The notes below the pieces were generated by a model, which searched no databases, was not told the DNA's origin, and worked only from the letters and a program-made list of their open reading frames with translations. Shown here one piece after another: positions 9,315 through 19,672 of a DNA stretch of 55,233 nucleotides. The stretch is from Parcubacteria bacterium C7867-006. GTDB taxonomy: Bacteria > Patescibacteriota > Minisyncoccia > Phycocordibacterales > DATDWN01. The translations under genes were made by a program, and so were the position numbers. The DNA lies in assembly GCA_001189155.1 (NCBI GenBank), contig LFCP01000003.1:1-55233 (forward strand), written 5' to 3'. Every line of letters begins with the position of its first letter. Position 1 is the first letter of the stretch.

Positions 9315-9386
9315 CTCCGCGGGTAGGGATCGAACCTACGACCAGCCGCTTAACAGGCGGCTGCTCTACCACTGAGCTACCGCGGA
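9315..9386 (-). tRNA. tRNA-Asn (anticodon GTT)
   Basis: On the minus strand, TCCGCGG (5' acceptor) pairs with CCGCGGA, with G as discriminator. The D arm is GCTC...GAGC and the anticodon arm GCCGC-CTGTTAA-GCGGC, with anticodon GTT. The T arm is GTAGG-TTCGATC-CCTAC. It is 72 nt, and CCA is not encoded. It is flanked by partial copies of itself. Confidence 0.97.
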
Positions 9387-9450
9387 ATGTTGTAAAACAT
9401 TTTTTGATTACCATTTTTTATGATAACCAAAATTTGTTTTGCAAAAATGT

Positions 9451-9575
9451 TGTAGCTCAGTGGGACCACTGGTCACTAGTCAAAATCTGTTGATTTTGCT
9501 AGCGACCCCAGCTCGCGCCGTCGCGCTACGCTCTTGCGCACGGGTCCCAAACCCATGCTCACTACCGCGGAATGT
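9451..9575. pseudogene. tRNA-like remnants and hairpin downstream of tRNA-Asn
   Basis: TGTAGCTCAGTGGG at 9451 (plus) repeats the 5'/D-arm part of tRNA-Asn in opposite orientation, and CTACCGCGGAATGT at 9562-9575 repeats its 5' acceptor end in the same orientation as the intact gene. Between them lies a long imperfect hairpin at 9471-9507 (GGTC, CTAG, CAAAATC, loop TGTT, and their complements). No functional tRNA can be folded. Confidence 0.6.
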
Positions 9576-16903: not shown

Positions 16904-18001
16904 ATGTCCATATTAGTTTTTCTTATAATTTTAGCTTTACTTATATTGGTCCATGAATTTGGTCATTTTATTGTTGCTAAAAAGTCCGGTATACGAGTGG
17001 ATGAGTTTGGGTTAGGTTTTCCTCCTAAAATATATTCAAAACAGTGGGGTAGTACGCTTTACACATTGAACGCTATACCTTTCGGTGGGTTTGTAAAAAT
17101 TTTTGGAGAAGATCCACATTCAGAAAATATAAGTGAGGAAGATAGGCCGACTAGTTTTTACTATAAACCAAAATGGATTCAGTCCATGGTTCTGGTTGCG
17201 GGAGTAACATTCAATATTCTTTTTGCTTGGTTTCTAATCTCTCTTGGCTATGGAATAGGAATACCATCACCAGTAGATCACTCTGGTTTTGGAGAAGTTA
17301 AAAATCCTCATTTAGTTATAACCGAAGTGATGCAAGATTCTCCAGCACAAAAAGCGGGATTAAAATCAGGTGATTATATTACTTCTCTATCATCTGGAGC
17401 ATCAAATTTGAAAGATAAAGATTTAACTCCAGAAAATATACAAAACGTTATATCCGAAACAAAAACAGAAGTAAAAGTTAATTATGTTAGGGGGTCTGAT
17501 CCAGAGAAAAGTGTTTCTGTTACACCTAGTAATAGTTTATCTGGTGGAAAGAAGGTAATTGGCATAGCGATGGATGAGATCGGTACATTGAAACTGCCTA
17601 TTCATTTGGCTGTTTTAGAGGGAGCCAAAACAACTTATCTTTTAACCAAAGCAACTGCTGTTGGACTGTTTTCATTTTTACGAGATGTAGTTTTGTTCCG
17701 TTCAGATTTTTCACAGGTTAGTGGACCTATTGGTATTGCGGGTGTAGTTGGGGAGGCGACTAAACTTGGATTTACTTACATCATTTCACTTACAGCTCTT
17801 ATTTCTATAAATCTAGCCATCATAAATCTTTTACCATTTCCAGCTCTAGATGGAGGGAGGCTTTTGTTTGTAATAATAGAATCAGTAAAAAGAAAACCTA
17901 TTTCTCCTAGATTTGTTCGTAATGCTAATTTTATAGGTTTTGCAATTTTGATAATACTAATGGTGGTTGTTTCAACTCACGATATTTTGAAACTTTTCTA
18001 G
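16904..18001 (+). CDS. rseP: site-2 intramembrane metalloprotease (RseP family, M50)
   Basis: 365 residues. The zinc motif HEFGH lies in the first transmembrane helix (LVHEFGHFIVAKKSGI), followed by the FGGFVKIFGED beta hairpin and a PDZ domain (SPAQKAGLKSGDYIT). The third zinc ligand motif NLLPFPALDGGR lies near the C-terminus. It cleaves membrane-bound regulators such as anti-sigma factors; the DUF5667 protein at 4941 is a candidate substrate (inference). No SD sequence. Confidence 0.95.
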   Translation: MSILVFLIILALLILVHEFGHFIVAKKSGIRVDEFGLGFPPKIYSKQWGSTLYTLNAIPFGGFVKIFGEDPHSENISEEDRPTSFYYKPKWIQSMVLVAGVTFNILFAWFLISLGYGIGIPSPVDHSGFGEVKNPHLVITEVMQDSPAQKAGLKSGDYITSLSSGASNLKDKDLTPENIQNVISETKTEVKVNYVRGSDPEKSVSVTPSNSLSGGKKVIGIAMDEIGTLKLPIHLAVLEGAKTTYLLTKATAVGLFSFLRDVVLFRSDFSQVSGPIGIAGVVGEATKLGFTYIISLTALISINLAIINLLPFPALDGGRLLFVIIESVKRKPISPRFVRNANFIGFAILIILMVVVSTHDILKLF

Positions 18002-18023
18002 TTGATTTATTTTATAATGGTGC

Positions 18024-18173
18024 TAAAGTAGTCCCTGGGTGGGGCGGCAGACTTTCCCCGTACTCGCGTCCTAGAACCGTAATCCGGGTGCAGTCGAACT
18101 ACCGCCCCACCTGACGAATTCAGCTTCGCTGAATCCATACCCACAGGCCCGCATAACGCGGGTCTTTCTTTTT
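18024..18173 (+). ncRNA. GC-rich structured ncRNA candidate of unknown family
   Basis: TATAAT at 18013-18018 is placed correctly for a start near 18024. A 10-bp stem (GGTGGGGCGG 18038-18047, CCGCCCCACC 18102-18111) encloses a structured loop, followed by a short hairpin ATTCAGC/GCTGAAT (around 18118-18134). An intrinsic terminator follows (GGCCCGC/GCGGGTC 18146-18164, then T-rich). The 74 nt from 18038 to 18111 have tRNA-like length and a 7-bp end stem, but no D or T arm can be formed. proS has its own leaderless promoter downstream, so this is probably a separate RNA. Confidence 0.6.
18146..18173 (+). terminator. intrinsic terminator of the 18.1-kb ncRNA candidate
   Basis: GGCCCGC (18146-18152) pairs with GCGGGTC (18158-18164) with loop ATAAC, followed by a T-rich run. 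Confidence 0.85.
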
Positions 18174-18207
18174 GACCCATATACTTTTTTAATATAGTAT
18201 TTAGTTT

Positions 18208-19455
18208 ATGCGACAATCACAACTTTTTACAAAAACACGAAAAGAGGCACCAGCAGATGAGACATCAAAAAACGCTCAGTTTCTTATTAGGGCAGGATTT
18301 ATAAACAAAGAAATGGCTGGAGTATATACTCTGCTACCACTAGGTTTTTCTGTAGTAAATAAAATAAAAAAAATTGTAAATGAAGAAATGAATGCTCTTG
18401 GTTCACAAGAAATATTAATGTCTACTATACAACCAAAGGAAGTTTGGGAGGTAACTGATAGGTGGGATTCAGAAAAAGTTGATGTTTGGTTTAAGTCTAT
18501 ATTAAAAAATGGTACAGAGATTGGTTTTGGTTGGTCACATGAAGAACCTATAACCAATATGTTAAAAAGTCATATATCTAGTTACGTAGATCTTCCAGTT
18601 TATGTTCACCAGTTTCAAACAAAACTTCGTAATGAAGAGCGCGCAAAGAGTGGAGTTATGAGAGGAAGAGAGTTTGTTATGAAAGATATGTATTCATATG
18701 CACGAGACGAAAAGGAGCATATGGATTTCTACAATAAAACAATAGATTCGTATAAAAGAGTTTTTGATAGACTTGGTTTGGGTAATGCAACATATGTTAC
18801 TACGGCCTCAGGAGGAGTTTTTTCTGATAAATTTAGTCATGAGTTTCAGACTATTTGTGAAGCCGGAGAAGATAATATATATGTGCACAAAGATGGAAAG
18901 ATGGCTTTAAATGAGGAGGTTTTTAATGATAAAACTCTTTTAGATCTCGGAGTATCGAAGGAAGATTTTGAATTTAAAAAAGCTGCGGAGATTGGAAACA
19001 TATTTACATTTGGAACAAAAAAATGTGAAGAGATAGGTTTGTATTTTACTGATAAAGATGGAAACAAAAAACCAGTTTATTTGGGTTCCTACGGAATAGG
19101 TATTACTAGAGTGATGGGTGTTATTGCAGAAGTATTTTCTGATAATAAAGGTTTAGTGTGGCCAAAAGAAGTTTCGCCATTCAATGTTCATTTAGTAAGA
19201 CTTGGTAATAGTGATGCGTCTTTAGCTTTTGCAGATAGACTTTATACCGAACTAGAAAGTAAGGGTGTTGAGGTTCTCTATGATGATAGAGATCTCAGAC
19301 CAGGAGAGAAATTCGCTGATTCTGATTTAATCGGTATTCCTGTTCGGTTTGTTGTTAGCGATAAAACTGTCGCTGAAAATAAAATAGAAGTTAAATATAG
19401 AACATCTGCAGAAGCAGAGTTGTTGTCAGAAACTGACGCTTTGAAAATTTTATAA
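18208..19455 (+). CDS. proS: prolyl-tRNA synthetase, short form without editing domain
   Basis: 415 residues. Class II motifs are visible: motif 2 (TKLRNEERAKSGVMRGREFVMKDMYSY) and motif 3 (GSYGIGITRVMGVIAE), then the anticodon-binding domain (PFNVHLVRLGN). Bacterial ProRS is usually near 570 residues with an INS editing domain between motifs 2 and 3; here only about 100 residues separate the motifs, so mischarged Ala-tRNAPro would not be edited in cis. TATAGT ends 9 nt before the ATG (leaderless). Confidence 0.95.
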   Translation: MRQSQLFTKTRKEAPADETSKNAQFLIRAGFINKEMAGVYTLLPLGFSVVNKIKKIVNEEMNALGSQEILMSTIQPKEVWEVTDRWDSEKVDVWFKSILKNGTEIGFGWSHEEPITNMLKSHISSYVDLPVYVHQFQTKLRNEERAKSGVMRGREFVMKDMYSYARDEKEHMDFYNKTIDSYKRVFDRLGLGNATYVTTASGGVFSDKFSHEFQTICEAGEDNIYVHKDGKMALNEEVFNDKTLLDLGVSKEDFEFKKAAEIGNIFTFGTKKCEEIGLYFTDKDGNKKPVYLGSYGIGITRVMGVIAEVFSDNKGLVWPKEVSPFNVHLVRLGNSDASLAFADRLYTELESKGVEVLYDDRDLRPGEKFADSDLIGIPVRFVVSDKTVAENKIEVKYRTSAEAELLSETDALKIL

Positions 19456-19501
19456 AAAGTTTTCTAATCTCGTTGAGCCAAAACTTTTGAAAGACCCCGC
19501 A

Positions 19502-19578
19502 GGCCTCTAGCATGGTTCTGTCAACGACCCTGTGAGATACGCATTCCATCTCACAGGGCTCATTGACAGATAGAGGCC
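19502..19578. repeat. nested palindrome element, copy D
   Basis: Stems in order: GGCCTCTA (19502) with TAGAGGCC (19571); CTGTCAA (19518) with TTGACAG (19563); CCCTGTGAGAT (19528) with ATCTCACAGGG (19548); loop of 9 nt. The spacers flanking the inner stem are CGACC and GGCTCA, like the CACC/GGCTC of copies A-C. Further inverted pairs (AAAAGTTTT/AAAACTTTT near 19455-19488) lie outside. It fills the gap between proS and the second mreB. Confidence 0.7.
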
Positions 19579-19672
19579 GAGGACAAAGTGAGATTTTCGC
19601 TGGAAAAGCGAGCGGTCTGGAAAAAGATTTGGTGAGAAAGAGATTTTATTAAATTGTGCTACTATACCCAGA

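Follow-up and report, generated by a model that had tools for sequence, protein, structure and literature searches.

The gap between rseP and proS in the genome of Parcubacteria bacterium C7867-006 is proposed to hold an independent small RNA gene whose structured, non-coding product of about 120-150 nt would be restricted to the genus and evolve fast; judging from sequence, we put the chances of this reading at about even. It draws on units found in the same gap of sister species, shared motifs, a helix with compensated changes, the stable folds of two of the units (those of the window and of G004), and the occurrence of such units in two clades. The new element here is the presence of similar units at the same gap in sister species.

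Genomic setting of the unit

The window, the whole stretch of 55,233 nucleotides that was analysed, is contig C3 of a genome (G000) of 673,860 bases (0.67 Mb) in 8 contigs. Members of the genus carry the public labels Paceibacterota, Parcubacteria and Zambryskibacteria. The gap is bounded upstream by rseP (16904-18001), encoding an M50 protease with a PDZ domain, and downstream by proS (18208-19455); frr lies upstream of this pair and mreB downstream. The unit had been described as GC-rich, and the gap indeed has a GC content of 0.58 versus 0.36 for the genome. Repeat counts over 227 kb and a whole-genome BLAST show that the unit is present in a single copy in its own genome.

Fold of the putative RNA

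The core of the putative RNA (18037-18112, plus strand) is a domain of 76 nt, correcting an initial estimate of 74 nt, in which folding gives a closing helix (P1) around an internal loop and an apical part that varies. P1 (18037-18047/18102-18112) comprises 10 perfect pairs and one G-U pair. Its GC-rich perfect part, GGTGGGGCGG at 18038-18047 paired with CCGCCCCACC at 18102-18111, is the longest perfect helix in the gap, and a helix of 10 bp or more arises in only 12 of 1000 dinucleotide shuffles. In 227 kb of the genome just 6 GC-rich helices, this one included, have at least 9 bp and a loop of 25-190 nt, local shuffles giving 0-1. The long stem of the original prediction is thereby confirmed, while the 7-bp end stem proposed with it has to be replaced by a closing stem of 10-11 bp. 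The second hairpin that had been predicted, GAATTCAGCTTCGCTGAATCC, is also found in the fold (18116-18136, plus strand). Compared with shuffled sequences, the stretch 18030-18173 is clearly more stable (z -4.5), the core alone less so (z -2.5); the complementary strand folds slightly better than the core (z -3.7 versus -2.5), but without a terminator.

Two motifs are shared with relatives. The 5' motif, CAGACTTTCC (18048-18057, plus strand), which emerged from alignment and pattern search, lies directly inside P1, and the form common to two related units, G001b and G011, is CTGACTTCC in the alignment. The 3' motif, GGTGCAGTCGAACTACC (18087-18103, plus strand), lies at the inner end of P1, and its aligned counterparts are GTGCAGTGTTTTGAACAACC in G001b and GAGTGCTGAACAAC in G011. 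The internal loop has a tandem GA reminiscent of a kink-turn, but this idea was abandoned, since its spacing is not the same in the three sequences.

Promoter and terminator

The putative promoter (17987-18018, plus strand) has a perfect -10 hexamer, TATAAT, at 18013-18018. The sole -35-like hexamer, TTGAAA at 17987-17992, is poor, lies within the 3' end of rseP and is separated from the -10 by a 20-nt spacer. The promoter is judged weak since a consensus promoter scan did not list the site; what stands of the promoter first claimed for the unit is thus its -10 box. Promoters at the same place in relatives read TTGACA-17-CAATAT (G001b), TTGACT-17-TATACT (G005) and TTGACT-17-TATGAT (G002). At the other end, the predicted intrinsic terminator is real by its pattern (18145-18173, plus strand; an 8-bp stem at 18145-18165 followed by a U tract) and is the best of the region, its U tract extending into the -35 element of proS.

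The proS gene has its own promoter, TTGACC-17-TAGTAT (18172-18207, plus strand), as the original prediction had it. It ends 7 nt before the ATG, so the proS mRNA is probably leaderless as far as sequence can tell. The same layout is found in G001, G003, G004, G005, G008, G009 and G013, and it is thus kept where the unit is missing, as in G003, G008 and G009. Control of proS in cis, with the unit as a T-box, riboswitch or attenuator leader working through its terminator, would account for its place ahead of proS, the shared orientation and the terminator at its end. We regard it as quite improbable: a separate proS promoter follows the terminator, in unit-less relatives as well; no T-box or riboswitch covariance model of Rfam matches the unit at E<=10, the only leader-type match being Trp_leader at a chance-level E of 9.5; and by eye the helix and the terminator stem showed no potential to pair alternatively. 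The view that the unit is not a leader of proS is therefore upheld.

Units in the same gap of sister species

Homologues before proS were looked for across the genus, and units with a terminator, mostly also with a promoter, were found in the rseP-proS gap of G000, G001 (two in tandem, G001a and G001b), G002, G004, G005 and G011; the gaps of G003, G006, G007, G008 and G009, as read, have no unit. Two classes were drawn from pairwise alignments against 300 shuffles. In class 1, similarity to the window unit was matched by 0/300 shuffles for G011, 5/300 for G001b and 7/300 for G004, the last of which probably belongs with the window unit on this alignment. G011 and G004 barely align with each other. 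Class 2 is built on similarity to G001a (0/300 shuffles as good for G005, 3/300 for G002). Its units (loci L004 in G001a, L007 in G005 and L011 in G002) are longer, at 220-260 nt; those of G005 and G002 have good promoters and folds of z -6.1 and -4.1, respectively, and an Rfam search of the class 2 units and the relatives' gaps gave no match. In the same gap of G012 (L017) there is a 34-codon ORF with a promoter and a Shine-Dalgarno site, AAGGAGGT.

Alignment places the class 1 motifs, CWGACTT and GAACWA, just inside the closing helix. With pairs chosen by eye in three to four sequences, 4 of the 11 pairs of P1 are changed on both sides among G000, G001b and G011 (sliding controls, 0), and 5 of 11 when G004 is added. 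The folds of the relatives are uneven. G004 is well separated from its shuffles (z -4.6), the core of G001b is barely more stable than shuffled sequences (z -1.0), and G011, whose stem encloses about 100 nt more, has a minimum-energy fold without P1 (z -0.7).

Since G001b is hardly stabilized and G011 does not fold as proposed, the support from relatives is modest, which leaves room for the main rival of the small RNA gene: that the unit is nothing more than the 3' untranslated region of the frr-rseP operon with its terminator, the hairpins stopping and stabilizing that mRNA, and yields no RNA of its own. The start of the unit right after the rseP stop codon, its strong terminator, the poor -35 in the window and a sequence that is hardly conserved would all fit such an end. 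However, good -35/-10 pairs follow rseP in relatives, G001 has two successive promoter-RNA-terminator units, five relatives do without a terminator there, and a closed domain of 76 nt with shared motifs exceeds what a terminator needs. We consider this rival rather unlikely.

Coding of a small protein is highly improbable. Small genes with their own promoters do occur nearby in relatives (the ORF of G012 is one), but on the plus strand the frame that begins with the ATG following the -10 is only 4 codons long, and the relatives have no open frame in common in the gaps read.

In a ProS tree, class 1 falls into two separate clades and class 2 into others. Most simply, the two would have stood in tandem in the ancestor, the state seen in G001, and been lost repeatedly, with repeated gain as the alternative.

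Searches beyond the gap

DNA search with the window unit in 99 relatives returned its own copy only, and that with G001b in 17 genomes recovered the query and, at other places, nothing but short chance matches. The covariance model of class 1, run on 197 genomes, gave convincing, low-E matches only in the gap copies of G000 and G001. Its sensitivity is limited, as it misses G011 although that sequence is in the model. The motif pattern matched G000, G001 and seven others among 297 genomes, which does not exceed the reversed-pattern control; one match, in G010, is a real tRNA-Thr gene and was judged to be chance. Taken together, the model and pattern searches, over about 200-300 relatives, revealed the unit at no other place.

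Phage and plasmid collections contained no match to the unit either. This bears on another possibility, that the unit is an element acting at the level of DNA, such as a small mobile palindrome or its remnant, instead of an RNA gene. The patchy presence of the unit, its high GC in an AT-rich genome and a different hairpin element nearby (19456-19672) that has a second genomic copy would be in keeping with a mobile origin; the single copy of the unit, its absence from those collections, its constant gap and orientation and the placement of its terminator before the proS promoter argue against one. Such an origin seems improbable to us.

Other elements near the locus

The nearby hairpin element occupies the proS-mreB gap of the window. 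It folds into a long hairpin (z about -6), and its termini carry imperfect inverted repeats, of which one reads AATCTC...CCAAAA and the other is a reversed like sequence. There is a 70%-identical copy at about 10290-10452 of contig C1 of the same genome (L112), in which both hairpin arms are shorter, and weaker partial matches lie after proS in G008 and in L009. From its sequence it looks like a small dispersed palindromic element. After proS in G003 (L003), the minus strand carries a TTGACA promoter-like unit with a terminator and an open frame of about 32 codons. Farther upstream in the window, TACCGCGGAATGT, located at the 5' end of a tRNA-Asn gene (minus strand), occurs at 9378-9390 and 9563-9575, 185 bp apart. 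The repeats flank a GC-rich segment with an inverted piece of tRNA sequence, GTAGCTCAGTGG; Rfam gave no match there, and the segment resembles a small insertion or a rearrangement affecting the tRNA gene.

Comparison with known RNAs

That the unit fits no RNA family was borne out by Rfam 15, in which nothing at the unit exceeded the gathering threshold and the matches at E<=10 were chance. Neither ARAGORN nor Rfam (RF00005) calls a tRNA there, both real tRNAs of the window lying elsewhere. The unit resembles a tRNA in core length only: it has no D, anticodon or T arms, the lack of D and T arms having been foreseen. A special meaning of its tRNA-like size is not supported, as the stem is 10-11 bp long and the G011 unit is about 100 nt longer.

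Like 6S RNA (RF00013), the putative RNA is small and combines a long closed helix with an internal loop. However, 6S RNA is a rod of about 185 nt with a large central bubble, which the 76-nt core does not have, and 6S RNA gave no match at cut-off in the genus. The small SRP RNA (4.5S, RF00169) is similar in size and rod-like fold. Bacterial SRP RNA (RF00169, RF01854) was rejected as the identity of the unit; the conserved GGAA-tetraloop domain is absent. SRP RNA models had no match in 148 relatives, and no SRP54-domain protein (neither Ffh nor FtsY) was found in G000, G001, G003, G004, G006 and G011. The absence of SRP in Parcubacteria has already been published (PMC4508563). Hfq was not found in six genomes. 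As a positive control, RNase P RNA was recovered from 11 of 12 genomes of the genus, so the searches work in these genomes.

The unit is like orphan intergenic small RNA genes of bacteria in its layout of putative own promoter, closed helix and intrinsic terminator, and in size, lineage restriction and fast sequence change. It differs from them in that the genomes here yielded no Hfq in the search and in having no known target.

Proposed mode of action

For a small RNA gene, we propose the following. RNA polymerase would start just after the TATAAT at 18013-18018 and the transcript would end at the intrinsic terminator. The two ends of the core would pair as the long GC-rich helix, protecting the RNA, and P1 would display an asymmetric internal loop, CWGACTT facing GAACWA, together with the variable apical arm. 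We take the conserved loop to be, most likely, a site where a protein binds or a tertiary contact forms, and the arm may be the species-specific part; an RNA so divided would probably act in trans and regulate, or serve as a scaffold, independently of Hfq. Since no Hfq was found in the six genomes, antisense action that depends on it is unlikely, and independence of both Hfq and SRP is the best reading, neither system having been found.

More tentatively, and with some doubt, the gap may carry two new structured RNA families in this Zambryskibacteria-like genus, classes 1 and 2, which would have been adjacent ancestrally, been lost or kept independently, and outpaced the neighbouring proteins in sequence change yet kept their helices. 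If true, they would rank with the earliest lineage-specific regulatory RNAs described from bacteria that have neither SRP nor Hfq. Nothing relevant on regulatory RNAs of Patescibacteria was found in the paper library searched, and the field looks little explored.

As a small RNA gene the unit would be unremarkable in kind, but it is unlisted, has positional relatives and turns over fast. Such genes would escape Rfam-based annotation, and an RNA locus that is fixed in place while turning over in content would offer a tractable example among bacteria that can rarely be cultured.
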